Part shown: positions 18,960 through 53,000 of the stretch, piece after piece
Layout of the letters: each line of letters opens with the position of its first letter
Numbering within the stretch: position 1 is the first letter of the stretch
From: Siphonodentalium dalli
Taxonomy: Eukaryota > Mollusca > Scaphopoda > Gadilida > Siphonodentaliidae
Length of the DNA stretch: 64,000 nucleotides
Assembly (NCBI GenBank): GCA_032622095.1
Contig: CP136061.1
Span: forward strand, 190,348,369-190,412,368
Reading direction: 5' to 3'
The notes under the pieces: generated by a model
What the model was told of the DNA's origin: nothing
Databases searched by the model: none
Seen by the model: the letters and a program-made list of their open reading frames with translations, nothing else
Translations under genes and position numbers: made by a program

Positions 18960-20494
18960 GTACCCATAACCAGCATATGGCATGATGCTATTAAACGGTC
19001 CCGAATAAATACCGCAGTGTATGTATTCTATTAGTACAGGTGAAACCGATGGCCAGACTGGGTACAAAGAATATTAATTTGTGAGCCATATTTAGAGTTT
19101 AAAACTTCTTCAAAACAGGATGTTTAGTGACTGGGTCGTGTCATCTGTCACTGTATTTCATTTTATTTTTGTTCCCATCAATAAATTTTGAAATATTGTA
19201 GTAACTTTTCAGATTTTCAGTGTCATTAACAATGTCAATATATAAGAGAGTGAATGGGTTTAATGGACAGGGGAAGGTATGATATGAAAGTATGAAAAAT
19301 GATAGTGCTATACACCATTGTAAACTATAATTTGGAGTAAAATCCACATGATCTAGCAATCTAGCCTTTGTACGTGTATTTTGTAAAACATCTCATGCAA
19401 TTTTTTTTCATTTCAATTGTCACACACCCATCACAGAAAAGCTGTTTGAATGGCCAAACCACCCACCCAAAATAGTGTCAATTATATTAAAATATATATC
19501 AGAAGTAAGGCACGTATTGATCCAGATCAACCCTGGAAATAGTTCTCAAATTTAATAGCTTTTAAATGGTGTATGATAATAATATTGACATTTTCTTGTC
19601 ACTCATTAAAATCTGTTATAATTTTCCTAAAATCAGATACATGTACAGAACATTTTTCTCAAATACAATTACCCTTGCAAAGCTGAGGTGTTTGGATGTC
19701 AATACAGAAATATGCGTTTAATAAATGCTTTATTTTAGTGAGTGGTTAGATCAATAAAACAACAACAAAATCTATAAATTAACAATCAAAACAATATACA
19801 TTAAAAATATAGAGTTATCCTCAACCTGGAAATGTACTTAATATATAGAGCTAAATATAAAACTGAAAGCCAGCCAACAAAAGAAAATGCAATAGCTATG
19901 TATTGCAAAAAACAAGACCTAACTGTGATGTATATTTTAGAGAATAAGCCAAATTAATACCAATAGATAAGATCGGGATAGACAATGTTCTAACACAACA
20001 ATCATGATTTTTTTTCTCAATTTCACCTACATACTATTAAAGCTGTACTAAGATGAATTTTACCAAATTGTTAAACATCATGAAGACAGGGATGAGGTGG
20101 GGGGGGGGGGGACTTCCAACATTGTCTTCTGAATGGAAAATAGTCTAGAAAGTCTGCCAGTTGTATATGAGTTAATAAGCATGAAATTACCAATCTGTTT
20201 CATGCTGATAAGAATTGTTAAATTGGACAGATTGGATAGTTTTCATAACAAATAATTACTGCTCGCAAGTGGAGATCCGAAGCTAGTAATCTAGGGGGAA
20301 CCAGCCCACTGTAAAATATACCACAAAATGTTGAAGCTATAGGATCTGAGAAAATGAGAATATATATATGTCTCATATATAGTATAAAATTAAATTAGCA
20401 ATATACAAAGTTGATGAATGCTGATTATGACAATAATCTGATCACAGTATAATGACAGCATTAACATGATTTTCATATCAGCTAAGATTAATCA
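18960..20494. other. No recognisable feature
   Basis: AT-rich unique-looking DNA leading into the 55-bp satellite. It contains a G run near 20100-20111 and no supportable frame. Confidence 0.4.
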
Positions 20495-23400
20495 GGGCGG
20501 GATGTCCCCAGGGCAGGTTATAACATACTCATCAAAAGAATGGACAGGAGGGCGGGATGTCCCCAGGGCAGGTTATAACATACTCATCAAAAGAATGGAC
20601 AGGAGGGCGGGATGTCCCCAGGGCAGGTTATAACATACTCATCAAAAGAATGGACAGGAGGGCGGGATGTCCCCAGGGCAGGTTATAACATACTCATCAA
20701 AAGAATGGACAGGAGGGCGGGATGTCCCCAGGGCAGGTTATAACATACTCATCAAAAGAATGGACAGGAGGGCGGGATGTCCCCAGGGCAGGTTATAACA
20801 TACTCATCAAAAGAATGGACAGGAGGGCGGGATGTCCCCAGGGCAGGTTATAACATACTCATCAAAAGAATGGACAGGAGGGCGGGATGTCCCCAGGGCA
20901 GGTTATAACATACTCATCAAAAGAATGGACAGGAGGGCGGGATGTCCCCAGGGCAGGTTATAACATACTCATCAAAAGAATGGACAGGAGGGCGGGATGT
21001 CCCCAGGGCAGGTTATAACATACTCATCAAAAGAATGGACAGGAGGGCGGGATGTCCCCAGGGCAGGTTATAACATACTCATCAAAAGAATGGACAGGAG
21101 GGCGGGATGTCCCCAGGGCAGGTTATAACATACTCATCAAAAGAATGGACAGGAGGGCGGGATGTCCCCAGGGCAGGTTATAACATACTCATCAAAAGAA
21201 TGGACAGGAGGGCGGGATGTCCCCAGGGCAGGTTATAACATACTCATCAAAAGAATGGACAGGAGGGCGGGATGTTCCCAGGGCAGGTTATAACATACTC
21301 ATCAAAAGAATGGACAGGAGGGCGGGATGTCCCCAGGGCAGGTTATAACATACTCATCAAAAAGAATGGACAGGAGGGCGGGATGTCCCCAGGGCAGGTT
21401 ATAACATACTCATCAAAAGAATGGACAGGAGGGCGGGATGTCCCCAGGGCAGGTTATAACATACTCATCAAAAGAATGGACAGGAGGGCGGGATGTCCCC
21501 AGGGCAGGTTATAACATACTCATCAAAAGAATGGACAGGAGGGCGGGATGTCCCCAGGGCAGGTTATAACATACTCATCAAAAGAATGGACAGGAGGGCG
21601 GGATGTCCCCAGGGCAGGTTATAACATACTCATCAAAAGAATGGACAGGAGGGCGGGATGTTCCCAGGGCAGGTTATAACATACTCATCAAAAGAATGGA
21701 CAGGAGGGCGGGATGTCCCCAGGGCAGGTTATAACATACTCATCAAAAGAATGGACAGGAGGGCGGGATGTCCCCAGGGCAGGTTATAACATACTCATCA
21801 AAAGAATGGACAGGAGGGCGGGATGTCCCCAGGGCAGGTTATAACATACTCATCAAAAGAATGGACAGGAGGGCGGGATGTCCCCAGGGCAGGTTATAAC
21901 ATACTCATCAAAAGAATGGACAGGAGGGCGGGATGTCCCCAGGGCAGGTTATAACATACTCATCAAAAGAATGGACAGGAGGGCGGGATGTCCCCAGGGC
22001 AGGTTATAACATACTCATCAAAAGAATGGACAGGAGGGCGGGATGTCCCCAGGGCAGGTTATAACATACTCATCAAAAGAATGGACAGGAGGGCGGGATG
22101 TCCCCAGGGCAGGTTATAACATACTCATCAAAAGAATGGACAGGAGGGCGGGATGTCCCCAGGGCAGGTTATAACATACTCATCAAAAGAATGGACAGGA
22201 GGGCGGGATGTCCCCAGGGCAGGTTATAACATACTCATCAAAAGAATGGACAGGAGGGCGGGATGTCCCCAGGGCAGGTTATAACATACTCATCAAAAGA
22301 ATGGACAGGAGGGCGGGATGTCCCCAGGGCAGGTTATAACATACTCATCAAAAGAATGGACAGGAGGGCGGGATGTCCCCAGGGCAGGTTATAACATACT
22401 CATCAAAAGAATGGACAGGAGGGCGGGATGTCCCCAGGGCAGGTTATAACATACTCATCAAAAGAATGGACAGGAGGGCGGGATGTCCCCAGGGCAGGTT
22501 ATAACATACTCATCAAAAGAATGGACAGGAGGGCGGGATGTCCCCAGGGCAGGTTATAACATACTCATCAAAAGAATGGACAGGAGGGCGGGATGTCCCC
22601 AGGGCAGGTTATAACATACTCATCAAAAGAATGGACAGGAGGGCGGGATGTCCCCAGGGCAGGTTATAACATACTCATCAAAAGAATGGACAGGAGGGCG
22701 GGATGTTCCCAGGGCAGGTTATAACATACTCATCAAAAGAATGGACAGGAGGGCGGGATGTCCCCAGGGCAGGTTATAACATACTCATCAAAAGAATGGA
22801 CAGGAGGGCGGGATGTCCCCAGGGCAGGTTATAACATACTCATCAAAAGAATGGACAGGAGGGCGGGATGTCCCCAGGGCAGGTTATAACATACTCATCA
22901 AAAGAATGGACAGGAGGGCGGGATGTCCCCAGGGCAGGTTATAACATACTCATCAAAAGAATGGACAGGAGGGCGGGATGTCCCCAGGGCAGGTTATAAC
23001 ATACTCATCAAAAGAATGGACAGGAGGGCGGGATGTCCCCAGGGCAGGTTATAACATACTCATCAAAAGAATGGACAGGAGGGCGGGATGTTCCCAGGGC
23101 AGGTTATAACATACTCATCAAAAGAATGGACAGGAGGGCGGGATGTCCCCAGGGCAGGTTATAACATACTCATCAAAAGAATGGACAGGAGGGCGGGATG
23201 TCCCCAGGGCAGGTTATAACATACTCATCAAAAGAATGGACAGGAGGGCGGGATGTCCCCAGGGCAGGTTATAACATACTCATCAAAAGAATGGACAGGA
23301 GGGCGGGATGTCCCCAGGGCAGGTTATAACATACTCATCAAAAGAATGGACAGGAGGGCGGGATGTCCCCAGGGCAGGTTATAACATACTCATCAAAAGA

Positions 23401-23745
23401 ATGGACAGGAGGGCGGGATGTCCCCAGGGCAGGTTATAACATACTCATCAAAAGAATGGACAGGAGGGCGGGATGTCCCCAGGGCAGGTTATAACATACT
23501 CATCAAAAGAATGGACAGGAGGGCGGGATGTCCCCAGGGCAGGTTATAACATACTCATCAAAAGAATGGACAGGAGGGCGGGATGTCCCCAGGGCAGGTT
23601 ATAACATACTCATCAAAAGAATGGACAGGAGGGCGGGATGTCCCCAGGGCAGGTTATAACATACTCATCAAAAGAATGGACAGGAGGGCGGGATGTCCCA
23701 TGGGCAGGTTACCACAACCCATCAAAAACATGGGCAGGTTTAAAT
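20495..23745. repeat. 55-bp satellite, 58 full units plus a degenerate tail
   Basis: Perfectly regular 55-bp units starting gggcgggatgtccccagggc. Full units run from 20495 to 23685; a degraded partial unit (gatgtcccatgggcaggtt) continues to about 23745. Units are almost identical: one extra A in the unit at 21320 and a c-to-t change (gatgttcccag) in four units starting 21265, 21651, 22696 and 23081. Such homogeneity implies recent amplification or gene conversion. The frames within are satellite translations because 55 is not a multiple of 3. Confidence 0.98.
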
Positions 23746-30607: not shown

Positions 30608-30804
30608 TCATGCTAGATAAGTCCGCACTGTTCCCTTGATGGTTTTCCGACACAATGGACAGTCTTTTAGTGATGCTGCACACACGCCGCATGCCACCAG
30701 ATGGCCGCATGGTAAGAACACTATATTAGCGTTCTCCTCGAGACAGATTTTACACAGTAGCTGCTCCTTCATTTCATTGTTTTCGGAAGCTATGTTCTTC
30801 ACTA
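30608..30804 (-). CDS. IAP exon 5: RING finger and stop
   Basis: Encodes MKEQLLCKICLEENANIVFL and PCGHLVACGVCAASLKDCPL then CRKTIKGTVRTYLA and stop. Pattern C-x2-C-x11-C-x-H-x3-C-x2-C-x6-C-x2-C, the C3HC4 RING of IAPs, with the usual KGTVRT end. The acceptor ttcttgtagtag is a tandem NAGNAG site; either choice keeps frame. The apparent Met start at 30844 is intronic. Confidence 0.95.
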
Positions 30805-33800
30805 CTACAAGAAATGAAAGAATGTAAAGTAATTGATAGATCATAGATTACCATAACACAAGTGATAAATTCTGTCCTGTTAGATATATATCCCCTTTTT
30901 TATCTTAAGCAGAGCCTCTAGTCAGTGACTCGAACATTTTTTTGGGGTTTTAAGCATCTTGATTTAAAAACAAGACTACGCCGTCGGGGAGTGGCATAAT
31001 ACGTCTTTTTCTGGAGTAGAGTGGGGCATGTAGACAGAACACATATTTGAACTTGATCTGTATACCAGATTTGGTTCAGTTCACTCGATTCAATCTAAAG
31101 TTATCATCTGGAAACCACATATTAGGTAAAATCTAAGTAAACGAGAGGCCGATCACGATCGGCAGATGTTTAACGAATACCTTGGCGATAGCGATCAGCT
31201 ATTTTTATAAATCCTTACATCAATCTTTTCATGAGTGCTAAAGTTTCAACAATACACACTTAATATAGTGATCGTGTGAAAAATATTTAGTTATCACATT
31301 GTGTCAACAGGATTGGTGGAGATTGTTAATATTTATAAGCAAATAAACCAAATGACCCTCACTATGCAGGGGTGTGTTCTCGTCAACTATGCCAAGAACT
31401 ACATGTATAAACAAAATCAATTGAAATATTTGAGTTATCAAATCATATAGAATGGGGTTAATCTTACCCAAACTAATGAACTGATAAACACAAAATAGTC
31501 TATACAAAGCATGTCATTGGATTTAAAAACCCATACAATAAGTCAGTCTCAAGAATACCAGCACCATTAATATTACCCTGGAGCCCAAATGCAATTGAGG
31601 GAATCTAAAAATAAGACATTTCCTCTAATGATGAATATTCAATTGGCGATTTATTGAAACCCTTACGGAACCTGGATCAAAGTGAAAGGGATAATATTAT
31701 ATCTGTCTATCGCATAATATGTGTCTATGGAATGGTTTAATTTTAATCCCAAATCCATGCAAATCAAAAGTGGATCACCATCAACCTGGACATAATATAG
31801 GAGAATGATCAAATGAAAAGCATCAAAACCATATGATGTGTGGAGAGGGTTAATCATTTTCAATGACATCATATCATGGAACTAAGGAATGTGTGGATTA
31901 ATTTTTGTCTAAGATAAGACAACAGTGTCTGTAAACAACAATGTCTGTAAAACATCCCTACAAAGTATCAATGGACTATTCCAATTTAATATTTTAGAAT
32001 AGGTGTCCTATAGTGTGTACATTAACTATTGTAATTCAATTGAGTATTTGTCACTAAAAACAAGCATTCTGATTGGTCGAGAGCGGCTAACTTTCGTTTT
32101 CGATTCACCGACATCGGCCGCTTCAGCGTGCATCAAATCTGAATGTAGCACGGTCAAATTTCATCGGTGCAGAACGAGTAGCGAAACGAGCACACCCGCG
32201 CGTTGTTGTCTATAGATACCGTTCATCGGTCGCTTCAGCGTGCATCAAATCTGAATGTGACACGGCACAATTTCGTCGGCGCAGAACGGAGTAGCGAAAC
32301 GAGCCAACCAGCCCCACAGGAAATGGTTGCGGAGCAGTGTTCCGAGTAACGCAATGAACAAACCCAATGATTTGTGCACGGTGACAACGGCGAAATGAAA
32401 GTCTCAGTTCGTGTCATGAAAATGACTAAATGATACTTTTTATACAGTTGTTTTGCAAATTCCTTGCTAGATTGAATTACAATGGAGATAAACGTACCCT
32501 GTTTCGTTGTACATTCTGGGATTCGAGCATGAAAACAGTTTGTGAACTCGCCGGCAAGCCGGCTCGTTCACAAACTGTTTTCATGCTCGAATCCCAGAAT
32601 GTACAACTCAACAGGGTATGTTTATCTCCTAAATGTAATGAACATGATGTTACAGCAAAGGGGTTAACTTAATATTTCACAGAAAACAGAACTCCACCTG
32701 ATAGTCATCAATCAATTTGACATTACGATTAACAAATCCTACCAGCCAGTGGTACCACTATCAGGCTTTATAGCATGTCATGATATCTAATGTCCATAGT
32801 GATAATTAACTCATTTCAATAACACACATGGTCTGTTAGATATGTTCTCTTAAAATTCCCAGCAGTAATTACTTGAATTATAAAGGGTCATAACTCTGTT
32901 AAAATATATCGGATCAAACCCATATTCGTACTCGATCTGTATTTAGGGGTGATAAATTCATATACCATTTTTGGTGTTGATCAGATGAAAAATGTTTTGA
33001 GTCATAGCAGCTTGGGTGAATTCTAAGTAAACATAAGAGTGAAAAGTGTTAATTAAACAATACCAAAAACCATACAGATGAAGAACGTGCTAAGAAAAAC
33101 CTAGGTAAGAAATATGAGGCAGATCAGAAGAAATATGTTCAACTTATTGCATTGGATAGCATGTGTGTAAAGGGTTAATTATTTTCTAAACCGATCAATC
33201 AATACCAAAAACTATACAGATGAGGGGCGTGTCATCATAAACCTACATATCAAATATGAACACAATCGAAGATAAAATACTTCGGTTATAGCATCGGATT
33301 TTTTTTTTGGATTTTTTTTTTTAAAAATGGGTCATAACTCCTTTAAAATAAATAGGATCAAACCCATATTGAACTCGATCTGTATTTTGGGCTCTGAAAC
33401 TCGCATACCAAATTTGGTTCCGATCAGATAAAAATTGTTTGAGTTATGACAGCATGCGTGAATTCGAAGTTGAAAAAGGGCCATAACTCCGTAAAAAAAA
33501 CCTCGGATCAAACCCATATTTGAACTTGATCTGTATTTTGGTCTGAGAAACTCATATTCAAAATTTGGTTCCGATCGAATAGAAAATATTTGAGTTATAG
33601 CACCATGCGTAAAGTGTCTACGGACAGACAGACAGACAGACGGACGCACGCACGACAAGTGGTCAATCCGGACGTCGACATTATGTTTACCATACTATGG
33701 TATGGGTACACATAATAAGGGGCATAACTCAGTCAATATCATGCAGACGAAACCAATATTCGAACTTGATCTGTATTTTGGGGTGGTAAACTAATATACC

Positions 33801-36800
33801 AAATTTGGTTCAGTTCACTAGATTCAATCTAAAGTTATCATCCGGAAACCGCAAATCAGATAAAATCTAAGTCGAAAAATGGGCATAACTCAGTCAAAAT
33901 AATGCGGGCGAAAACCCATATTCGAACTTGATCTGTATTTTGGAGTGGTAAACTAATATACCAAATTTGGTTCAGTTCACTTGATTCAATCTAAAGTTAT
34001 CATCCGGAAACCGTAATTAAGATAAAATCTAAGTCGAAAAAGGGGCATAACTCAGTCAAAATCATGCGGACGAAACCCTTGATCACCGGGTGTGATTTAT
34101 TTATCTCACCTGTATTATTTTACCTTCATGATGTTTAGGTTTGATCATCAGACATGATTTGTTTATCTCACCTGTATTATTTAATGTTGATGATGTTTGG
34201 GGTTGATCACCGGGTGTGATTTATTTATCTCACCTGTATTATTTAATGTCGATGATGTTTGGGGTTGATCATCAGGTGTAATTTATTTATCTCACCTGTA
34301 TTATTTTACCTTCATGATGTTTAGGTTTGATCATCAGACATGATTTATTTATCTCACCTGTATTATTTAATGTTGATGATGTTTGGGGTTGATCACCGGG
34401 TGTGATTTATTTATCTCACCTGTATTATTTGACCTTCATGATGTTTAGGTTTGATCATCAGACATGATTTATTTATCTCACCTGTATTATTTGACCTTCA
34501 TGATGTTTGGGGTTTATCATCGGGTGTGATTTTACTGATTTATTTATCTCACCTGCATTATTTGACCTTGATGTTTGGGGTTTATCATCAGGGGTATCTC
34601 TTCTGGTTTCAAGCGGCTCCTCAGCTTTCAGCATCGCAGTGATTTCATCCTCACTCATTCCATCCGGGACAAGACTAGCCTCAGCTTCGCTGCTGAGTAT
34701 GAACGACATAAGGTCTTCAGCCCTTGGGAAATCATTGATATCTAAGGGGAAATAGTTATAAATGTAGCATGTTAACCGTTTCTTTACTAAATGGATTCTC
34801 TCACCAATTATATAAATTTACATAGGAATGGTCTGTTATTCATCTGTGGGGATGTTAAGGAAATACAAGCAGACGACAGACAGACAAACAGAAAAATAAA
34901 AGTGTCCTATTCATTGGTGGGAAATGTTCAGATAATAAGTTCAACAAATGGTAGTCTATTTAACTATTATCTGAACATTTCCTAAGAATACTACTTGTCA
35001 ATGAGTATGTATTAAGATCTTTTTGATTAAACATCGGGATGTTATTGGAGTAATTGGATTTTTATCGGCAATTCCACTGTAACAATCATTTTTACTTAAC
35101 AATGGTTTTGATACGTGAAATTATTGGAGAGTTAGTAATAATGAAAATAAGAACAATGCCAATCTATTTTTCATGCACTTTGTTAGATCCATAAGGAATT
35201 GTTCAGATAATAAGTTCAACAAAGACAATAGAAACGAGCAGAGGTCGTTTATGGAACTTATAATCTAGCCATTTCCCTCCCATAAATAGCACTCCTTCTC
35301 TACCTGTATTATCAGTCTTCTTATATTTCCTGAAAACCCATCCAGATGAATAATAGAACATATAGAAGATGACTCGAACTATAGAATGTTTTATGAGATT
35401 CACTGCATTCTTTGGGAGGAAAAGATGAAAAAACAGTATGTTCAGTGATTCCAGCACATTCAACAAGCAGCTCCATACTCTCTCCTGCCAAATAAACGTG
35501 ACGTCACGTTTATTTATTTAAAGAAAAATACGACAGCATCACGATTATTAGGCGCCATCACGATTATTTAAAGTTCTTGCAAAGTCGCGGAATTTTCAGT
35601 CAAAAAGTTAGAAAAAACGTGCAGCTCACTAAAAAAAATAGAAGTGCACTTGACAAGTTGACAGGAATGTGGGAGAATCTCATTCCTAACAGGATTTAGG
35701 CCTCTAGATCATGATGTCCGTGTATAAACAGACGGATTATCGCAGTTAATTACAACTCATCAAAGCTTATAATCACACAGTGACAACTAATTATCGTTGG
35801 GACGGAACCGACTTCTACTATCAAAACGGGACTTAATGCTAAAATCACATCACCAGGCTTATATTATAAAATAATCAGTGAAACTAATCTGAGTGACAAC
35901 TGATGAACTAATTTAACTTGACGTGGCCGACTTCTCCAAACAATACTGTTATCGTGACCCAATTATGCGCTATCATGAAGACACAGAAGCTGTGAGTCGT
36001 GTGCACACATGCGTGACTGGTTTTGGCTATAAATGGAAAGTTACGACACCGCAGTAGCTTCTGTGTGTACACAGGAACATGTATTTAAATCTATGCAATA
36101 AAGCAATACAATAACATGTCCGTGTATTCAAAGCACAGTTTAATTATGAATGCGATGACTTGGCAACAGTTCCACATTATTAACCACAACTTACGTTTTA
36201 TGTCGGATTTAAGTTTTATGTCGGATTTTAAATAGCCGATGTGCGACATAAGAAAGATAACTCTAATTTACATCTCGAGCGAAATATTGATGGATGATGC
36301 AACCGATATGCCAACTAATTTCCCGCAAGTTCCACCTTTTACTCATTGTCACTGATCATTGTGCGCCATCACTATTATTTGGCACCATCACTATTATTAA
36401 TAACACCCGAAAATGTGCACCATCACTATTATTTGGCCATCACTATTATTAGGCAGGGGAGAGTGGTCGCTCAAACATTTTATCTCTGAAGTGAAAGTCC
36501 AGTTTCTCTTTGAAATGAAGCATGGTTATTGATTCAACAACATCATCTGGGAGGTAATTCCAGTTGTGACATACAGTAATGCTCTAAGTAATCGACTTCT
36601 TAACCACAGCAGAATTATGGATAACTTTTCAGGATTTAGTCGGAAATATCATGGATGATGGCTTGTTGCCATTCATCGGAAAGCTCTCACTGAGAGCTTT
36701 CCGATGAATGGCAACAAGCCATATTTCCGACTAAATCCTGAAAAGTTATCCATAATTCTGCTGTGGTTAAGAAGACGATTACTTAGAGCATTACTATACA

Positions 36801-38059: not shown

Positions 38060-41000
38060 ATATGGGCAGGTTTATTGTTATAGGGGGGATGAGTCTTTTT
38101 GTAAGATTTCTTAAACAGGAACATAATGCATAATATAACATGTAACATTGCTGCAGTATGTCTCAGTTGGAATGTAGACTAAAGTCGTATTGCGAAGTAT
38201 CAGAGGTGTATTTAATCGGATTAGTAGATTTTTGGCCCACCTTTAGACGCTTTCTAAAGTGGTGAATGAGAAACATCCAGTGATAAGCCAGTTAATATGG
38301 TCGCCATGGATTCTCTCCCGGTCGTCAGTCATAGTTGTTGTAATAATTTGAAGGATTAGTTGGTTTTAACGGAATTATGAGATGGTGCATTCATGAAACC
38401 TTGAGGGAGTTATGAATAATTAGTCTCCATAATCGGAAGCCATGGAATCTCTCAGCCATTTAGTTGTTTTAATAATTCGGTGGACTGATTAATTATTGAT
38501 TTTAACAGATTCCTGAGGTGGTGAATGAAACTTTGTTGGAAATTACTGATAAAAGCCTTGAGATATTGTTTGTAAATCACACAGTTTTTAGTTGCTGTAG
38601 ATTGGCTTCTGTCAGTAAATTTGTTTTTTTAATAATATGATCATCGGGAACCAGTATTTTTAAATTTACCTCCGAATGTCATGAATGAAGCAAACACTGG
38701 CTTAGTTTGATACTTCAGTAACTTCAGAGATCAGTTCACTGAAAAGAATTCAGAATGTTTATTTTCGATATGTACACAATGTCATATCAAACAAGTTTCT
38801 GTCAGCAAATCGGCGGCAGACTGATTGTAGGCGTGAATTGGGTGATATTTTGCTCAACTGAGATATGAAAGGTTGTTGTTCTAAGATATGTCACAAAGTA
38901 AGATGAAAAAGATTTATTTTATCATGCATGCATTTATTGAAATAAAAAATCAAACTAAATCAACTTTTATTTTATTATATGATGCACTGTGTTCCCTCAA
39001 AAGAATGGCCCAGCCATTGTTCACACATAAATACCACAAGCATTAACGCGGTCATAAATGTTATACTGCAACAATGAGACATCCGTGAATAAATACTTAC
39101 AGCAAAAGACTTACTCTTTATAACAATTCATGTTATTCAATTCAATTTGCTTTAACGTATGAATATGGTTGTGCGTATTGCAAGTGTGATATGTCACAAT
39201 CATGTTATCTAAAGGCATTATATTTTGCTAGTCACTTTCAAATATCAATTAGTTTGTTGGTTGGTTGTTTTCTTATATTCAATTGTTGCAATTGTCTATT
39301 TTTCATTTCAGGGTTGAAACATATCTGACAACAGTCACTTGTGAGTGTGCAAATGTGAGTGCAAGTACTTTCAATGTTTCAATGTAACTTTACTCCAATG
39401 TGTATCTTTGTCAAGTGAAAGTTTGCCTCATCTTCATTTGTTTTCTCAATAAAAATTAAAGAAATAAATACTAAAAAAAAAATTGCTTAGGGTCTAATTG
39501 TTCATTGGTTTCTATAACGAGCGAAACAATGGGTACCCTAATAAATGGAAACATGACTAATTCAGAGATAATAATATGGGGGAATACCTTTGCCTTTTTT
39601 TCTGAGTTCATGTTCGATATTCTGTCGGCTGTAACCCAGCTCCATGACAGCCTGCATTTTAATTGAAGGCACTTCACTGCTAGTGGATTCTGTAGGTACT
39701 AAAAAACACATAAACGAATATAACTCATCTTGCAGAAGACCAGATTAAATTTCCACAATGAAGTCCATTCTGGTCAGAAACGAATGAAACATGATATATT
39801 ATGAAATTTGTTCCTCAGATATGAATTATAGGTGTGTTCAACCCCTTTCAATACTAAATACTCTGACATTGACGAGTAGTTCACTTAGGAAATGTTCAGA
39901 TAATATATGGTCATATTTTGAACTTATTATCTGAACATTTTCCTCTAGAACATTTTCTCCTATTTCAAGTCTATCGAGGAATTTGTAATCAATCTGAGGC
40001 GAAATTGTGTTTTGACAATTATTTTAACATCATCATTCATCTACATTAAATTATAAGGGTGGAGAAAAGGTCAGCATCCAAATTTTGACACATGTTTATT
40101 ACATGTTTTGTTTAGCTACCATAACACAGTGAGGTGTTCAAATGAGCATAGCAGATAACCTTACTCAACGCAGGTTATTTTCATGAATAGTGTATCAAAA
40201 TTTGCAGCACAGAACATCATTCGTTTATATGAATAACTCTCGTTGGCGGAATCATTCCTCATTGTTTATCAGTGATTAATTCAGGACAAAAGAAACATTA
40301 AATGTTTACATTTTTTAGTAGTTCAGATGCCTTATTTTGTGAAAACAAGAAAAGGAACTATATATATACCCGGTAGTACAAACAATTTTATAATAGTTGA
40401 AGTTTTTGTAACTAAAATTTGAATGTTGTTTTCTTCGGGTGTAGTGTCTGAATGGTAAACTATCAGCTTAAAGTGGATGATGATTTATTCTCGAATTCAT
40501 AAGAACATATAGCAAATAAAAAGTTATTTACAGAAAATAATATCAATAGTTTGATAGGGTATATACATATTATATACATGTCTCCGGTGCAATGGGGAAA
40601 ATTTGAATGTTGTGTTCTTCGGGTGTAGTGGCTGAATGGTAAACTACATATATTAGCTTGAAGTTTTGAACAATGAACATAATGTGTTTTCAAGTTTTAA
40701 CGTTACATCAGCAGGAAATGAATAACACCTTTATAGACTCATTAGTCTATAAAGGTGTTACCATACAATTCCTGTCATCTTATAATTTGATCGAGACTCA
40801 TACATCTATACATATACAATAACATTACATTAGCTACAACAGTAACACAATAATCAACACATAGTACAAAATTGAAGTCACTTATAATATTTGAAGAGAT
40901 GAGATGTATTTCTGATCGATCTGCTATTTTCCTAAATTGGTAAACTAAACAATAAAACTTACAACTTATTCCAAAAGAGTTCTTCAGCCTGTCTTGTTGT

Positions 41001-44000
41001 TGTGTTAAAGCAGGATCAGATACACCTTTGATGAAGTCAGTTCCCTTTATGAGCCTCATGTATCCACATTGCGGAAACCATTTGGCATGTTCAACAAATG
41101 GGTCATCCTCTGCATCCCAGTTCATCAGGTTCCCATTGCAACAGAAACATTTCACCTTGTCACCAGAACCTGTAATATGTGAGCCAAAAAGGCAAAACAA
41201 AAATATATAAGTGTTTCTGGTAATAGATTAGAAACGAGATAGTTGTCTAACGTTTGCAGAACGAGGTCCCCAGCGGGTTAATTTAGTGTTAGACAGCACA
41301 TTCTGCTGAGGTATCAACTACTATGGGAGACCTAGGATAAAATTGAAGTACTCAGTTGAAGTTGGTGATATCCCCCATTAGTCACCTCGATTATTCATTT
41401 TATCTTCTGCTTATTAGGATATACAGAAACTGAACAGAAGGGAAAAAGTAACCAAAAACAATGTTAATTTGAGACTATAGACACTTCCTAGAAGATGAGG
41501 CCTATGCAGAATGAGGTCCCCAAAGGGTGAATTTGGTGATTCTCGCCCACTGTGCAGGATAGCATCACTAAATTCACTCTCTGGGACCTCAGTCTGCAAA
41601 TGTCAGACACACTATATTCAGACTTGAAATGACCGCTGAGACAACATCAGAATGAAGAGAAGGAGAGAAACTGGACCTTTACTATTAATTTTTGGATTCC
41701 ACTGATTGTATGGCTTATCAGTTAATAAATAAGGTCTTATTAAATTTGATCAATGCCAGTGGCCATGCTCGTCCAACATAATATGCATATGTTTTTTCTT
41801 AAAACCTGCCAAATATATACATCGAAATTAACCCTTTACCCAACAAAACGGCCAAAACCGGCCAAATAAAGCTTCAACAGCCTAAAATATCTTCGGTCTG
41901 TCTCAATAGAACCATACAAATATGGATATCATTGGAACCGGCTCCTTGACCACATTGTGATAGTTACAGTTATGCCCTGTGCCAATGCATTCTCTTATAT
42001 ATGCGAGTCGACCATAGGTCGCCTCGCATATATAAGAGAATGCATTGGCCTAAATAAAATCTTTTTTAACACTTTTTACCATTTTTTCTTACATTCTTTA
42101 ACAATTTTATAATTTTTAATGTGTTAAGCCAATGCATTCTCTTATATATGCGAGGCGACCTATGGTCGACTCGCATATATAAGAGAATGCATTGGCACAG
42201 GGCCCTTCTGTTGGGTAAAGGTTAAGAGGGTTAAAATTATTGAAAAATGCAAATCCTAACAATGTTGCAATGTTAAAGAGATGTGAAACACTCATGTTGG
42301 GTGATCAGATAGAAATAGAGAATAATCTTGTTCAAAGTAGTTATTTTTACAAATAATTATATCTAACTTGACAACACACTCTGTCATTCACATATATTAA
42401 TTAAATGCAGTGACCGCCGATGGCGAAATCATTTTCCTTAGTTTATTGCTGACAGAAGCGTCAACGATTCAAGTAGTAAATATTTACAATTTAGCATAGT
42501 TCAGGTGATGTTTTCTATGGAGTGGTACGGTCGATTTGCTTGAGATTTTCGGTGATGTTAGTGGAATGCTACATTCCTCCAGTTGGCATAGCACCTGAAT
42601 ACTAACTTATCAGTTCCACACACGGTGACACCCGAACAAGTACATAATATGTCTTTAATAGTAAATGTAAAATTCTTCCGTTTATTAGTATAAAAGTCTC
42701 ATTTTAATATTTTAATTAACCTAGTAAACTTCTCATAATTTCTATTTTGATTTCCATTTATGAAAGAAAAACTTAAAATCTGAAACCAAGTTCTATATTA
42801 CCGGCATACTAAAGTTAATATCAATTTGGCCAGTAGTTATGGAGAAGCAGATATGTCAATGCTAACATGGACTCAACCTAGCCAATACAGTAATGCTCTA
42901 ACTAATTGACTCCTTAAACACAGCAGAATTATGGGTCATTTTTCAGTGAGAGCTTTCCGATGAATGGCAACAAGCCATATTTCCGACTAAATCCTGAAAA
43001 ATTACCCATAATTCTACTGTGGTTAAGGAGTCGATTATTTAGAGCATTACTGTACTTCCAAGGGAAAGTTACCGATATATTTCAAAACTTATTGACACTT
43101 ACTAATGTTATAATGATTATGAATATTTTGCTTCAAACATAATTTTGGTACTTATACAGTAATGCTCTAATTAATCGACTACTTAACCACAGCAGAATTA
43201 TGGGTAACTTTTCATGATTTAGTCAGAAATATGGCTTGTTGCCATTCATCGGAAAGCTCTCGACGAGAACTTTCCGATGAATGGCAACAAGCCATATTTC
43301 CGACTAAATCCTGAAAAGTTACCCATAATTCTGCTGTGGTTAAGGAGTCGATTAATTAGAGCATTACTATATGTGGAACAAAATAGTATATTAGTTTGGC
43401 CTGAAGTTACTAATTGACAAGAGGTTATTGACCACCCCATCATGATTGCAATGACTTCCCCAGTACAACATGCCTGAGAATAAGGTGCCTGTCATTAGCA
43501 GTATGAGGTCCCCAGAGGGTGATTGTAGTGAGGCTATCCCACATAATGGCTAGCATTACTAAATTCACCCTCTGATGACCTCATTCTGCTTAGGCCTCAT
43601 CTTCTCTGGAAAGTTTATTTTTATCAAATTTCTATAGAAACTTCTTCACATAGATTCTATTTCTTTTTTAGTTTGGTTTCTCTATATCCCCAAATTGGCG
43701 GACAACACATTGCATAGTCAAGGTTCCAATGGGTTACATCACAATATTCACCATTTGGGAACTTCAATCTGAGTGTATGTCTCCCATAGCAGATGAAGCC
43801 ATGCATAATGAGGTCCCCAGAGGGTGAATTTAGTGATGCTAGCCTGCTGTGTGGGATAGCATTACTAAATTCACCCTCTGGGGACCTCATTCTGCAAATG
43901 ACAGGCATACTAATCTCAGGCTTGCAGTATAGTTAGATCACCATGCACAAGACTTGAAATAGTGTCTGTCATTTGCATAATGAGGTCCCCAGAGTGTTAA

Positions 44001-47000
44001 TTTAGTGATGCTACCTTGTACAGTGGGCTAGTATCACTAAATTCATCCGCTGGGGTCCTCATTCTGCTTAGGCCTCATCTTCTGGGAAGTATATATAGTC
44101 TCAAATTAACAATGTTTCAGAACATCACCAACTTCAACTGGAAAACTTAAATTTCATCCTAGGTCTCCCATAGCTAGCAGTTGAGGCCTAAGCAGAATGA
44201 GGTCCCCAGAGGGAGAATTTGGTGATGCTAGCTCACTGTACGGGATAGCATAACTAAATTCACCCTCTGGAGACCTCATTCTGCAAATGACATACACACT
44301 ATTTCAAGGCTTGTGGCTAATAACAAGTCAGTTAGTGTTATGTAATCAGCACTCAGCAGGTGATATAGAGTAGAAACATTTTATGACCACAATCCACTTG
44401 AGTCATCATAATTTAGAACTTATTTAGTTGCATCCAGTTGGCAAACATTACAAATAATGTTCTTAAGTGGTCCTTTATATAGATCAAGCTTCAACTTTTG
44501 CTTTTGTGCCAGAAATTTAATTGTGGTCAGTAAATTGGTATTTGCATCCTGTGATCATGGTGTTTATTATAGTCAAGCTATGATATACTCAGTGATGTAC
44601 ATGTAGCCATAAATTATTATAAAATTGATTCTCATGCTTTGGCGATGGCTATTAATAAATGGACTACCAGTTGCTGTGTAAACATTACCATCACACATAT
44701 TACTGCTTCACCACTCATAATAATGCAATAGATTATCTACATGTTAGCAGATCTAGAGCCTCAAGGAATCTAAACAAAAATAGGCAATTATATATTTGTT
44801 GAGTCGGGGTAAACACTTGATTTTCATCAAATTTCATTCTAGTAGTAATATTTAATTCACTTATGTTGTGCAATCTTCAGAAAATTAGCTAAATAAGCAT
44901 GACTGTGATTAAAATCAATATTAGTGTAAATATATAATAGTTAAAATAGCATTTCTGTATAGAATGTTGTATATACTCTGCCCATGCGCTCTAAAAAGGC
45001 TTATAATTATAAAATATATTTATAGTGTATTCAGACTTGAAATTTGACCTTTCATTATATTAATACTGAAATATGCAACTCAAAGAGTGGATCAGAGGAT
45101 GTACGAACTGTATAAAGCATGACATGGATATGATATGGTTTAAAATCACGAATCATATCAACATGCCATTTAGTACACTGATTTGAGAAAACCAAATTAA
45201 AAAATATGGAGTTTATTTTGCATATTCTTAACCCTTTGAACCCGAGAGACCGGAATACCGGTCCAATCCTTATATTCCTATATCCCGGGAGACCGGAATA
45301 CCGGTCCAGAAATCAGACGGTAATTGACACGAAATTACAGCTCAATAAACGCACCTATCAATGAAAGTGTCAATGACACTGTAGCTCAACTTGGAAATGG
45401 AATAATTTAATGTATTACAGTCAATGGAGCGACTAGGAATGTGGGAAGTTGAATGTCTATTACTAGTTTATGGACATGAAGAGAAAAGTAAAATCCAAGA
45501 TGGCTGCTGGCGGCCATGTTTTCGGCCGAATGACCCCAAAAAGAATCGTTCCCACCTACATGTCATCGTTAACAGCCATGACAAATTTTATGATGATCAG
45601 ACTAAAGGTACGACCTGTAGCCCGTGCTAAAGAATTTAGTCATACAAAGAGTAAAATCCAAGATGGCTGCTGGCGGCCATGTTTTTGGGCCAAATAACCC
45701 CAAAATTACTAGTTCCCATCTACATATCAATATTAACATCCATAACAAATTTTATGATGATCAGACTAAAGGTACGACCTGTAGCCCGTGCTAAAGGATT
45801 TAGTCATACAAAGAGTAAAATCAAAGATGCCTGCTGGCGGCCATGTTTTTTGACCGAATGACCCCAAAATGACTCGTTCCCATCTACATGTCATTATTAA
45901 CATTCATGACAAATTTTATGATGATCAGACTAAAGGTACGACCTATAGCCCGTGCTAAAGGATTTAGTCATACAAAGAGTAAAATCCAAGATGGCTGCTG
46001 GTGGCCATGTTTTTGGGCCAAATGACCCCAAAATTACTCGTTCCCATCTACATATCAATATTAACATCCATGACAAATTTGATGATGATCAGACTAAAGG
46101 TATGACCTGTAGCCCGTGCTAAAGAATTTAGTCATACAAAGAGTAAAATCCAAGATGGCTGCTGGCCGAATGACCCCAAAATTACTCGTTCCCATCTACA
46201 TGTCAATATTAACATCCATCACAAATTTCATGATGATCAGACGAACAGTACGACCTGTGGCCCGTGCTAATGGATTGAATTTTGAAATCCAAGATGGCCA
46301 CTGGCGGCCATTGTTTTTTGTCCGAATGACCCCAATATGACTCGTTCCCATCTACATTCCAATTTCAACAGCCATAACAAATTTTATGATGATCAGACTA
46401 AAGGTACGACCTGTAGCCCGTGCTAAAGGATTTAGTCATACAAAGAGTAAAATCAAAGATGCCTGCTGGCGGCCATGTTTTTTGACCGAATAACCCCAAA
46501 ATGACTCGTTCCCATCTACATGTCATTATTAACATTCATGACAAATTTTATGATGATCAGACTAAAGGTATGACCTGTAGCCCGTGCTAAAGGATTTAGT
46601 CATACAAAGAGTAAAATCCAAGATGGCTGCTGGCGGCCATGTTTTTGGGCCAAATGACCCCAAAATTACTCGTTCCCATCTACATATCAATATTAACATC
46701 CATGACAAATTTGATGATGATCAGACTAAAGGTATGACCTGTAGCCCGTGCTAAAGAATTTAGTCATACAAAGAGTAAAATCCAAGATGGCTGCTGGCTG
46801 CCATGTTTTTTGGCCGAATGACCCCAAAATTACTCGTTCCCATCTACATGTCAATATTAACATCCATGACAAATTTCATGATGATCAGCCGAACAGTACA
46901 ACCTGTGGCCCGTGCTAATGGATTGAATTTTGAAATCCAAGATGGCCACTGGCGGCCATTATTTTTTGTCCGAATGACCCCAAAATGACTCGTTCCCATC

Positions 47001-50000
47001 TACATTCCAATTTCAACAGCCATCACAAATTTTATGATGATCAGATTAAAGGTACGACCTGTAGCCCGTGCTAAAGGATTTAGTCATACAAAGAGTAAAA
47101 TCAAAGATGCCTGCTGGCGGCCATGTTTTTTGACCGAATGACCCCAAAATGACTCGTTCCCATCTACATGTCATTATTAACATTCATCACAAATTTCATG
47201 ATGATCAGACGAACAGTACAACCTGTGGCCCGTGCTAATGGATTGAATTTTGAAATCCAAGATGGCTGCTGGCGGCTATGTTTTTGGGCCAAATAACCCC
47301 AAAATTACTAGTTCCCATCTACATATCAAAATTAACATCCATGACAAATTTGATGATGATCAGACTAAAGGTATGACCTGTAGCCCGTGCTAAAGAATTT
47401 AGTCATACAAAGAGTAAAATCCAAGATGGCTGCTGGCTGCCATGTTTTTTGGCCGAATGACCCCAAAATTACTCGTTCCCATCTACATGTCAATATTAAC
47501 ATCCATCACAAATTTCATGATGATCAGACGAACAGTACAACCTGTGGCCCGTGCTAATGGATTGAATTTTGAAATCCAAGATGGCCACTGGCGGCCATTG
47601 TTTTTTGTCCGAATGACCCCAAAAGGTTACACTGGTGTAAATAAGGTTCGGAGAGACCTCTAGCGGATGCGGGAGGAATATATAGGAGAGAATAAAATAG
47701 ACACTGGGCCCTGATTGGTCAATAGCCTTGTGTGCTTTTTGCATAAAAAAATCATCACACCTCTTCCCTATGATTTCCCATAGGTAAGATAGCCATTGGC
47801 ACAGGAATTAACCCTTTGTAGTGAAGTTTGAATTTGTTGGTGTGGTCTAAAATATGACAGTATTTTTTTATGCGGATCTGACACTAGTTACGAAAACACA
47901 AGATTTAAAGGCGAATTCCCTGCTAGACAGATATGATTTTTTTGTGTAAAAAGTTTCCCGAAATGTCAATTTTTCAGATTTAAAAAAAAAATTGGACCCA
48001 TGGTTCATATAGCCAACAGCATACGCTAAAACGTTAGCACTGAGGCCTATGGAAAACATTTACACCAGTGTAACCTAAAGGGAAAAATGAACTTTTTGGC
48101 ATTTTTGATTCCTGGGAGTCACTTTAAAGTATTTTAATGCATTTTTCACAGCCTGGTCTTTCAGTCCAATGAATCTCCCATGCATGGTGTGGCTATTCTT
48201 GCTGCTGATGTCTTCTTTCACTTCCATCGGCCAAAAAAATGGTATGATTTTTCATAAAAAATGCCAATTTTTCAAGGTATTTTCAAAAAATTTCAAGGTG
48301 GTAATTGTCACATGATAATGCAAATTACCCATTACATGAGCATGTCAATGACACACATACCAATTGTTATAAGAAGCTAATCTAACAAGTATTTTGGATT
48401 TTATAGCCAGTGATATACAGATATATATAATAAAAGTGTCTCATTTTCACTGGTGGGTATGGCCATTTGAAGGTTAATAGCACTAAAACTTGGACACATT
48501 TAAGGAAATGCTTCAGCATTTCAAAGAGAGCATATCTTTGTTCAACTAATTCAATATACACCCACATCCAGTTATCTTGGATCACCCCTGCAGACCTGAA
48601 AATGTCATATTTTAGTCTTCCATGTGCTGATAAAGTCATGTGCTTGATGCTCAGCTGATCAGATCTGGACTCAATGACCTCACATCACCAGAAGTTCTCT
48701 CATGGAAAGGATCTTGTACAGTCTTCCATAGCTGATCCAAGTTTGCAACACCAGACCCCAAAAACTGTGTGAAAATGGGGCCTGAATATGACTTGTGGTG
48801 GAAAAATGTGCTTTTTTGATGAATAATGTGTTACAGAGAGTGGGGTTAAATTGTGTGTGATAAATAAAGAACCACAGAAGTGATATTATTTTTGAACACA
48901 TTTTTTTCATTCATGGGCAATTCTGAAAAAATGTAGGGTGTTACAATTATTCCGCGAAAAAGCGGGCTATCGCTTTAGGTTACACTGGTGTAAATAAGGT
49001 TCGGAGAGACCTCTAGCGGATGCGGGAGGAATATATAGGAGAGAATAAAATAGACACTGGGCCCTGATTGGTCAATAGCCTTGTGTGCTTTTTGCATAAA
49101 AAAATCATCACACCTCTTCCCTATGATTTCCCATAGGTAAGATAGCCATTGGCACAGGAATTAACCCTTTGTAGTGAAGTTTGAATTTGTTGGTGTGGTC
49201 TAAAATATGACAGTATTTTTTTATGCGGATCTGACACTAGTTACGAAAACACAAGATTTAAAGGCGAATTCCCTGCTAGACAGATATGATTTTTTTGTGT
49301 AAAAAGTTTCCCGAAATGTCAATTTTTCAGATTAAAAAAAAAAATTGGACCCATGGTTCATATAGCCAACAGCATACGCTAAAACGTTAGCACTGAGGCC
49401 TATGGAAAACATTTACACCAGTGTAACCAAAATGACTCGTTCCCATCTACATTCCAATTTCAACAGCCATAACAAATTTTATGATGATCAGACTAAAGGT
49501 ACGACCTGTAGCCCGTGCTAAAGGATTTAGTCATACAAAGAGTAAAATCAAAGATGCCTGCTGGCGGCCATGTTTTTTGACCGAATGACCCCAAAATGAC
49601 TCTTTCCCATCTACATGTCATTATTAACATTCATGACAAATTTTATGATGATCAGACTAAAGGTATGACCTGTAGCCCGTGCTAAAGGATTTAGTCATAC
49701 AAAGAGTAAAATCCAAGATGGCTGCTGGCGGCCATGTTTTTGGGCCAAATGACCCCAAAATTACTCGTTCCCATCTACATATCAATATTAACATCCATGA
49801 CAAATTTGATGATGATCAGACTAAAGGTATGGCCTGTAGCCCGTGCTAAAGAATTTAGTCATACAAAGAGTAAAATCCAAGATGGCTGCTGGCCGCCATG
49901 TTTTTTGGCCGAAAGACCCCAAAATTACTCGTTCCCATCTACATGTCAATACTAACATCCATGACAAATTTCATGATGATCAGCCGAACAGTACAACCTG

Positions 50001-53000
50001 TGGCCCCAAAATGACTCGTTCCCATCTACATTCCAATTTCAACAGCCATCACAAATTTTATGATGATCAGATTAAAGGTACGACCTGTAGCCCGTGCTAA
50101 AGGATTTAGTCATACAAAGAGTAAAATCAAAGATGGCTGCTGGCGGCCATGTTTTTTGACCGAACGACCCCAAAATGACTCGTTCCCATCTACATGTTAT
50201 TATCAAAATTCATGACATATTTTATGATGATCAGACTAAAGGTACGACCTGTAGCCCGTGCTAAAGGATTTAGTCATACAAAGAGTAAAATCCAAGATGG
50301 CTGCTGGCGGCCATGTTTTTTGGCCAAATGACCCCAAAATGACTCGTTCCCATCTACATGTCAATATTAACATCCATCACAAATTTCATGATGATCAGAC
50401 AAACAGTACGACCTGTGGCCCGTGCTAATGGATTGAATTATGAAATCCAAGATGGCCGCTGGCGGCCATGTTTTTTGTCCAAATGACCCCAAAATGACTC
50501 GTTCCCATCTACATTCCAATTTCAACAGCCATCACAAATTTTATGATGATCGGACTAAAGGTACAACCTGTAGCCCGTGCTAAAGGATTTAGTCATACAA
50601 AGAGTAAAATCAAAGATGCCTGCTGGCGGCCATGTTTTTTTGACCGAACGACCCCAAAATGACTCGTTCCCATCTACATGTTATTATCAACATTCATGAT
50701 AAATTTTATGATGATCAGACTAAAGGTACGACCTGTAGCCTGTGCTAAAGAATTTAGTCATACAAAGAGTAAAATCCAAGATGGCTGCTGGCCGCCATGT
50801 TATTTGGCCGAATGACCCCAAAATTACTCGTTTCCATCTACATGTCAATATTAACATCCATCACAAATTTCATGATGATCAGACGAACCGTACGACCTGT
50901 GGCCCGTGCTAATGGATTGAATTTTGAAATCCAAGATGGCCACTGGCAGCCATGTTTTTTGTCCGAATGACCCCAAAATGACTCGTTCCCATCTACATTC
51001 CAATTTCAACAGCCACGACAAATTTTATGATGATCGGACTAAAGGTACGACCTGTAGCCCGTGCTAAAGGATTTAGTCATACAAAGAGTGAAATCAAAGA
51101 TGCCTGCTGGCGGCCATGTTTTTTGGCCTAATGACCCCAAAATGACTCGTTCCCATCTACATGTCATTATTAACATTCTTGACAAATTTTATGATGATCA
51201 GACTAAAAGTACGACCTGTAGCCCGTGCTAAAGAATTTAGTCATACAAAGAGTAAAATCCAAGATGGCTGCTGGTGGCCATGTTTTTGGGCCAAATGACC
51301 CCAAAATTACTCGTTCCCATCTAAATGTCAATATTAACATCCATGACAAATTTCATGACGATCAGACAAATAGTACGCCCTGTAGCCCGTGCTAATGGAT
51401 TGAATTTTGAAATGCAAGATGGCCATGTTTTTTTACCGAATGACCCCAAAATTAATCATTCTGGTCTAAATGTTGATGTCAACAGCTATGACAAATTTCA
51501 TAATGATACGACCAAAGGTACGACCTGTAGACTGCATTTTTGACGCCTTACGTACACACGTACACACGGACGACGGATGACAAAGCCATGGCAATAGCTC
51601 AAACTTTACAAAGTAAAGTTGAGCTAACTAGAGGTGTACTTCTACTTTGCACACACGTGTCAAATGTTTACCCATGCGACTTTGATAGACAACCTGGTGA
51701 CAGAGGTTCTGTTTCTTCGCGTATGCGCAGAGGCCTATTTTGAGAAAAAATAGTTTTTTATCACCAGAAAAGGGGAAGTATTTCGTTAGAAATTTCGCGA
51801 TCAAAGCCCAAATTAACTAGAATTGTGCTTCTACTTTGCGCAAATGAGTCACATTCATGTTCACAGCTCTGACTTTAGCAGCCAAATTGGAAACGGGGGT
51901 CTGTTTCTTTGCACACGCACACAGGTGCATTTAGAGAAATGCGTTTTATCGGAGGCAAAGGATAAGAATTTCATTATAAATATATAGCGCGACCAAAGGA
52001 AGCCGCAATATAATATACATGTATATTGGACGTGGAATCGACTGTCTTGTTGAAATTAATACTGTGTGACATATTTCATCGCAAACTAGTTTAGTTAGCA
52101 TAGTATATTGCCGTTTAGTTGAGCATGTATACGTGTATATACGTCCCAGTTAAGAGCATTATGAGTTACGTCGTCGGAAACACTATATAACGTCAGGCGC
52201 CTCGGGTTGGGGGCCATTTAACGTTCAGGACGTCAGGGTTCAAAGGGTTAAAGGCCCACTTAATTTTCGAGTCACCGAATATTTTTTTATAGTGCCTCGA
52301 TATACGGTTTTAATAACAATCTATGCCATAAAATATGATAAAAATACTATAATTCATCATCATTTGGAGCGTCTGTGTCTCAGAAGGTGCCCATAGAGTA
52401 ATAGAAAATAGCTGAAATCATAAAATCATTTCCCCCGTTATGGCTCCCAGAATGCAGCAGAATTCAACCTCCAGTTTATTTTCAATGGAAGGGGAATAAC
52501 TCTATATCTAGTTTATTACATCAAATAATACAATGTTTTGGAGCTTAATCTTTCAAATGGTATATAATATGGCATATTTTATATAATGTGATCTGGAGAT
52601 TCAAAAATTAAGTGGCCTTTAATGTCATATTATAAATTATAACACCTATTTAATATTTAAAGTTAAAACTTGTTAAGAACTTAAGAGAACACCTATATAG
52701 ACTATAGAGTAGGGATAGGACAGAACGGAATGAATTAAGGCAGCGCATCTCTTCCAGGCCACAATTACAAATTAACTTCAAGACTGCAAATATCTGTTTC
52801 TGTGAATAAAATAGATACAATGTAAAACTGAATATTGGGTATATATTTGTCTATAAAGGCATAATAAAGTGGTTTATTTCTGAAGCAGCCAAGACACGTT
52901 CGTTGTGAAATCTCAGCTGAAATGGCATTTGCCTTGATCGATGGTGATAACAAGATAGAGTTCTCCCTCTTGGTATGCTCCGAACGTCTCTGTGAGAATT

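Follow-up and report, generated by a model that had tools for sequence, protein, structure and literature searches.

An inhibitor of apoptosis (IAP) gene on the minus strand of the window (the whole 64-kb stretch of DNA that we analysed) carries an intronic minisatellite directly behind its exon 4, in which the 5′ splice site of the exon is repeated. We think it probable that this array came from repeated tandem duplication across the splice site, that the exon-proximal donor at 34552 stays productive and that its seven downstream copies, of equal sequence strength, are tolerated as decoys. Exon-end donor arrays recur in this genome, and the IAP array is one instance of a recurrent class.

The gene is an IAP of the BIR and RING type. 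Its joined protein of 311 residues holds a complete BIR domain (PF00653, 1.2e-23, residues 51-115) and a C-terminal RING (PF13920, 1.5e-15), and the closest solved structure is BIRC2 (3t6p, 6.8e-46). The inner junctions are all in phase 1, and an additional exon may lie upstream of the ATG. The features of the gene and the array are as follows; a slash marks the exon end.
54221 to 54452, minus strand: exon with the first half of the BIR, placed by its match to paralogues; the ATG at 54452 is taken as the start.
40963 to 41169, minus strand: exon 2, second half of the BIR (Pfam BIR 3.7e-13, splice sites, paralogue matches).
39588 to 39698, minus strand: exon 3, start of the UBA-like region (match to paralogue L010, splice sites).
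34553 to 34741, minus strand: exon 4, 189 nt, coding for the last part of the UBA-like region and for the linker (acceptor ccccttag, donor GCAG/gtgaga).
34553 to 34590, minus strand: exonic portion of the unit, about 38 bp, without the extra triplet of the intronic copies (alignment).
34079 to 34552, minus strand: intronic minisatellite of one 71-bp unit, six 62-bp units and one truncated unit of 31 bp (TRF, unit alignments).
33717 to 34078, no strand assigned: dispersed repeat with a period of about 161 bp that bounds the array (TRF; many genome copies, most matches ending at window 34078).
30608 to 30804, minus strand: coding part of exon 5, with the RING finger and the stop codon (Pfam zf-C3HC4_3, E 8.6e-17).

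The position of exons 3 and 4 and the BIRC2 match suggest the label "UBA-like"; the Pfam UBA match on exon 3 is sub-threshold (0.11), and Pfam finds no UBA in exon 4. The acceptor of the RING exon is a tandem TAGTAG (window 30802-30807, minus strand), and the exon can start at 30804 or 30801, both in frame and one residue apart. Blocks of a 164-bp repeat (AAGATGGC..GGCCATGTTTTTTGG) occupy window 45487-47624, 49427-51425 and 55122-57039 (TRF), two of them in the long intron between the BIR exons and one upstream of the first BIR exon.

Searching the genome with exon 4, we found three paralogues on contig 1 (C1), at 243.05 Mb, 243.12 Mb and 190.43 Mb (E-values 8.6e-17, 2.4e-16 and 4.6e-8). The two closest (L005 and L006, at 243.05 and 243.12 Mb) are a recent duplicate pair about 68 kb apart, with a protein identity of 98% in exon 4 and 94% in the RING. 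Exon 4 of the window gene is in phase 1 at either end, and its start and phase agree with the paralogue loci L008, L010 and L012. A comparison with L010 (152 codons of exon 4, the RING and half of the BIR) gives pS 0.84 and pN 0.26, a figure that spans the whole paralogue divergence and not the time since the birth of the array. It suggests that the gene is constrained, with synonymous change saturated and amino acids kept. The best 150 BIR matches in the genome include about 30 inverted pairs (minus, then plus) spread across contigs, mostly 6.6-6.7 kb apart (about 5.7-7.1 kb), as at C1:144658022 and C1:144664659 or at C2:207431740 and C2:207438375, as if a mobile element carried BIR genes at both ends.

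The layout of the array bears out the original prediction of eight regularly spaced, near-identical donors. The GT dinucleotides follow each other in exact 62-bp steps from 34109/34108 to 34481/34480, and a step of 71 bp leads to the exon's own GT at 34552/34551. On the plus strand ATCTCACCTG (donor CAGGTGAGAT on the minus strand) starts at 34103, 34165, 34227, 34289, 34351, 34413, 34475 and 34546, and all eight donors read CAG/GTGAGA, without a single difference from -3 through +6. On its minus strand, the 64-kb window has 8 instances of the nonamer CAGGTGAGA, every one inside the array, and on its plus strand none; 50 first-order Markov simulations of 64 kb gave a mean of 0.12 and a maximum of 2 per strand. 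At 34093-34591, TRF reports a 62-bp period with 8.0 copies, along with a 186-bp (3 x 62) period with 92% matches; head-to-tail units of this size (62 bp x 8) lie within the range of about 10-100 bp that defines a minisatellite.

Each unit joins about 38 bp of exon end to about 24 bp of intron start, a make-up that supports the earlier proposal of an array built from an exon/intron boundary. The likeness to the end of exon 4, put at about 38 bases, also held: 42/45 of the last exon bases recur in unit 1 and 37-38/45 in units 2-7. Unit 1, which is nearest to the exon sequence, has 9 extra bases, and a triplet absent from exon 4 is present in 7/7 full intronic copies. There are two unit types, units 2, 4 and 7 (60-61/62 identical) and units 3, 5 and 6 (58-62/62, with units 3 and 6 identical at 62/62), and identity between the types is 50-51/62. 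An in-frame stop interrupts the exon-like stretch of units 1, 2, 4 and 7; that of units 3, 5 and 6 is open. At 34079, after 31 bp of another unit, the array breaks off against the dispersed repeat. Folding exon 4 and the array at 20 C, we saw no RNA structure that singles out donor 1; all donors were mostly paired (0.11-0.47 unpaired).

Is this array found elsewhere? With zero mismatch, AAATAATRCAGGTGAGATAAA matches only the 8 array sites genome-wide, with 15 more places at 2 mismatches; its reversed control has 7 matches. One case named beforehand as refuting was an unrelated IAP gene with the same array away from any exon. A 124-bp query of two units matches this array only, and no further copy turned up in the genome, whether close to an IAP or not; this absence is not absolute, since the genome pattern and DNA searches skip very common words. 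Remnants of the array elsewhere in the window were rejected: the best local scores of three units on two strands were 15-20, against shuffle means of 15.9-17.2 and maxima of 19-21 (30 shuffles each). One score of 20 (unit 3, minus strand, near window 5 kb) tops its own shuffle maximum of 19 by one, and we judged it unconvincing.

The array is also absent from all three paralogous exon 4 loci. Since the genome searches find the unit at this locus alone and the array is missing from three paralogues, serial duplication of the IAP exon 4 boundary is its most likely origin, short of proof. At L010 and L012, exon 4 ends in phase 1, 46 nt from the point where the conserved DTPD codons begin, as in the window gene, and ordinary introns follow; the L008 exon seems to end at a GTGAGT 30 nt later (all three paralogues' splice sites were read by eye from the sequence). 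Alignment of the exon 4 tail with the paralogue tails scored no better than shuffled sequence, as 155-483 of 2000 shuffles attained the same score. The ancestral position of the boundary is therefore only moderately supported, the exon tail being unalignable beyond chance and L008 appearing to end later. A tail that is not conserved among paralogues would also fit the reverse course of events, in which the end of exon 4 was recruited from a pre-existing repeat. We hold such exonisation to be very improbable: the two closest paralogues have the same exon length and phase and lack the repeat, which the genome searches found at this locus only. It is harder still to credit that the array is a collapse or an expansion made by the assembly. 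One assembly was examined, which leaves room for such an error, but the scattered substitutions between units 2-7 (50-62 of 62 identical) and the ordered pattern of two unit types speak against it.

Next to the origin of the array stands its effect on the message. We read the predicted messages for the 8 donors with each of 2 acceptors (30804 or 30801), plus intron retention. On the minus strand, the donors would give the following products.
34551 to 34552: donor 1, the exon's own GT; the only one of the eight predicted to give the full protein of 311 (or 310) residues.
34480 to 34481: donor 2, extension of 71 nt; predicted 270 residues, RING lost.
34418 to 34419: donor 3; predicted 272 residues, with the in-frame stop (TAA) 53 nt upstream of the last junction.
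34356 to 34357: donor 4; predicted same 272 residues as donor 3, stop 115 nt before the last junction.
34294 to 34295: donor 5; predicted same 272 residues as donor 3, stop 177 nt before the last junction.
34232 to 34233: donor 6; predicted same 272 residues as donor 3, stop 239 nt before the last junction.
34170 to 34171: donor 7; predicted same 272 residues as donor 3, stop 301 nt before the last junction.
34108 to 34109: donor 8; predicted same 272 residues as donor 3, stop 363 nt before the last junction.

Thus, any of donors 2-8, if used, would remove the RING, in line with the RING-less isoforms foreseen originally. The extension of donor 2 is open up to the RING junction itself, where the frame runs into a TAG (a TGA if the second acceptor is used), a stop that lies in the last exon. 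Intron retention would yield the same RING-less product of 272 residues as donors 3-8, ending just past donor 2. Two further expectations did not survive this reading. The frame had been expected to change unless units were combined in threes, but it closes just after donor 2 (GTG AGA TAA), and donors 3-8 give one protein whatever the spacing. Repeat number had been expected to alter the linker, but donors 3-8 all lie behind that one in-frame TAA and give identical 272 residues; therefore, adding units beyond the second cannot alter the protein. At most, repeat number would alter the share of productive message. Vertebrate messages follow a 50-55-nt rule for nonsense-mediated decay. By this rule, donors 4-8 would feed decay and donor 3 would be borderline, so that use of a decoy would give a RING-less message that, for donors 3-8, would be partly open to decay.

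We then scanned the genome for runs of three donors (CAGGTGAG or CAGGTAAG) spaced 48-77 bp apart, and the matches listed were all on contig 1. From these we fetched 25 further arrays on contig 1, and from a 10-mer search three on contigs 2 and 3, which makes a sample of 29 donor arrays (the window, L013-L037 and L050-L052); a contig-1 array near 232 Mb was also listed and lies outside this sample. The open frames of 16 arrays, some trimmed, were put to Pfam, and the exon in the window was placed by paralogy. The other 12 (L017, L021, L023, L025, L027, L028, L030, L032-L035 and L051) were too short, near-duplicates or omitted. Donor arrays at homology-backed exon ends number 5/29 including the window, with those 12 of the 29 outside the homology test. 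The four beyond the window are these.
L015, C1:44.956 Mb, plus strand: SEC13 exon (..WAPSIGLPRSMIASCSQ/gtaagc; PDB SEC13, E 5.4e-27), mostly 55-bp units, 15 donors with identical nonamers.
L022, C1:21.690 Mb: STRIP1 exon (E 9e-19), 35-bp units, 5 donors.
L013, C1:94.646 Mb: calcium-binding EGF exon (EGF_CA, E 2.3e-9), mostly 70-bp units, 16 donors.
L050, C2:13.170 Mb: permease/SLC23 exon (Pfam 2.6e-17; PDB SLC23A1 1.3e-4), 12 copies of CAGGTG spaced by 25, 50 or 75 bp, of which the first marks the end of the exon itself.

The SEC13 and the STRIP1 exon each have one match in the genome; the next SEC13 exon was not found by four short motifs, including in the 5.3 kb downstream of the array. Six more arrays (L014, L016, L018, L019, L036 and L052) look like exon ends, without convincing homology. 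Each has an open frame, and all except L016 have an acceptor-like site; the best Pfam match of L016 is Lectin_C at 0.19, and L014 has no match in Pfam or PDB. L017 looks like an in-frame coding repeat rather than a boundary array. Behind the open frame of L052 lies a far longer array on the plus strand of contig 3 (L055, G000:C3:2694083-2700978), with 118 copies of ACAGGTGAGT at 57-60 bp and 98/117 steps of 59 bp. Its modules (ACAG/GTGAGT) have a pyrimidine content of 0.65-0.76 before each AG, which makes them tandem acceptor-plus-donor modules.

Nine arrays were read through (the window, L013, L014, L015, L016, L018, L019, L022 and L036), taking the longest open frame into donor 1, except in the window, where the gene's own frame was used. 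There are 0 or 1 alternative donors before the first in-frame stop. The step to a single pre-stop alternative donor is 71 nt in the window, 70 in L013, 55 in L015 and 35 in L022, none a multiple of three, and in 8/8 arrays measured the most frequent unit length is likewise indivisible by three. In these nine arrays, as far as can be read from the DNA, stops and frame leave the first donor alone productive.

Are donor arrays more frequent than chance repeats? Counting by eye among the matches listed (about 100 for each search), we found, on contig 1 as far as about 190.4 Mb, 12 and 13 distinct arrays of the two donor octamers and 12 of a reversed octamer, which is no enrichment of donor octamers among arrays. 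The raw matches, which overlap and are inflated by long satellites, numbered 2,517 for the first octamer (29,688 in its reversed control) and 4,649 for the second (1,040 in the control). With the 10-mer there were 258 matches, and 12 in the control, and about 80 of about 100 matches listed belong to one array on contig 3. The 12 control arrays include the window's own 55-bp array; TRF finds 59 copies of a 55-bp unit with 99% matches at window 20494-23738. A homology-backed frame ran into 0/12 control arrays (6 frames tested, 6 too short, at under 20 residues). The difference between 5/29 and 0/12, with homology assessed for 17 of the 29 arrays and 6 of the 12 controls, is not significant (one-sided p 0.16). 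Because the array numbers match the reversed control and because of this p value, we make no claim of special targeting; what we claim is recurrence and tolerance, not a dedicated mechanism.

We infer that the exon's own donor is the one used at these arrays. On the simplest reading, a high rate of minisatellite birth in the genome would let some births straddle a donor, and such arrays would persist only if the exon-proximal donor still wins; they would be tolerated because exon definition would favour the copy nearest to the exon. SEC13 is essential, and its single-match exon gives the strongest hint for an exon-proximal choice, as a full product would need donor 1 among 15 identical nonamers. 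In classical duplicated-donor experiments, the intron-proximal site was often favoured. If that held here, most IAP message would be RING-less, which counts against our explanation. Donors 2-8 might, alternatively, act together as a regulated switch, a RING-off choice giving BIR-only proteins or decay, with repeat number setting the odds. The products of donors 2-8 are all predicted to lack the RING and to share almost the same tail, multi-donor use of a minisatellite is on record for human IFI6 (PMC4526556), and PMC8917759 describes oyster IAP transcripts as alternatively spliced with varied domains. However, the paralogues do without the array, and the same architecture stands at SEC13, STRIP1, EGF and permease exons, which have no RING to switch; we regard such a switch as unlikely.

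The units might also behave as GT...AG mini-introns (ACAG/GTGAGA), whose stepwise splicing would restore the same donor each time and leave the mRNA unchanged. The juxtaposed AG/GT at every boundary is the ratchet-point layout of recursive splicing as outlined in PMC8605326, fission-yeast introns spanning several AGGT duplicates are reported in PMC4974935, and the far larger L055 has 118 such modules with pyrimidine-rich acceptors. In the IAP array, however, the pyrimidine content before each AG is 24-41%, against 65-82% at the gene's own acceptors, and we find it quite improbable that this array erases itself. Judged by these tracts, stepwise removal of units seems weak for the IAP array and thinkable for L055. 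Unlikely, in our estimate, is the wider form of this idea: a genome-wide class of splice-neutral exon-end satellites in which removal of units would restore the donor, so that arrays of 5 to >100 donors would expand in core genes with the mRNA unchanged, the IAP array being a weak and L055 an extreme member.

To our knowledge, most work on how the spliceosome selects one of several identical 5′ splice sites has used artificial constructs. The arrays described here offer a natural test of donor choice, with 8 identical donors at the IAP exon, 15 at the only match of the SEC13 exon, 16 at the EGF exon and 118 at the contig 3 locus. Exon proximity, recursive splicing or a leaky choice would be the competing outcomes, and repeat number might lower gene output. 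In genomes of this kind, gene prediction and repeat masking may put exon ends in the wrong place.

Several known systems resemble the IAP array in part. The repeat unit of human IFI6 is about 12 bp, against 62 bp here. In IFI6 (6-16), two downstream minisatellite units serve as donors and give alternative transcripts and isoforms, according to PMC4526556, which cites Turri 1995. As in that description, a minisatellite stands at an exon end, its units offer donors (those of the IAP array keep the donor intact and stand beside a genuine exon end) and the gene is linked to inhibition of apoptosis. IFI6 gains isoforms, whereas every alternative in the window's IAP is predicted to lose the RING. 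Oyster IAPs are described as expanded and alternatively spliced (PMC8917759). The Rogers model of intron gain by tandem AGGT duplication is discussed for potato (a variant), fission yeast and vertebrates (PMC4974935). AGGT is likewise present in every unit of the IAP array. Unlike the introns of that model, the array splits no exon and lengthens an existing intron; it is not a new intron within a former exon, because it lies behind donor 1, inside an intron already present, and L010 and L012 share the exon length. The ratchet points of recursive splicing, as PMC8605326 presents them, share the juxtaposed AG/GT of all IAP unit boundaries; their pyrimidine tracts are missing from the IAP array (0.24-0.41 vs 0.65-0.82) and present in L055.

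In human segmental duplications, internal tandem repeats with average 30-bp units are reported at exon-intron boundaries, where they change splicing, with 27 intron modifications (PMC2812944). The likeness lies in minisatellites that straddle such boundaries and alter gene structure. The human repeats, as that source presents them, make new introns or exons between recent paralogues, whereas in the window one donor was copied seven times into its own intron, and arrays in this genome also stand at exons with a single genome match. We found no donor arrays as a recurrent class in one invertebrate genome among literature titles and abstract starts, a survey that lay mostly outside subscription journals. 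The kind is already known from the IFI6 minisatellite and the human exon-boundary repeats, and its recurrence within one genome is the interesting part.
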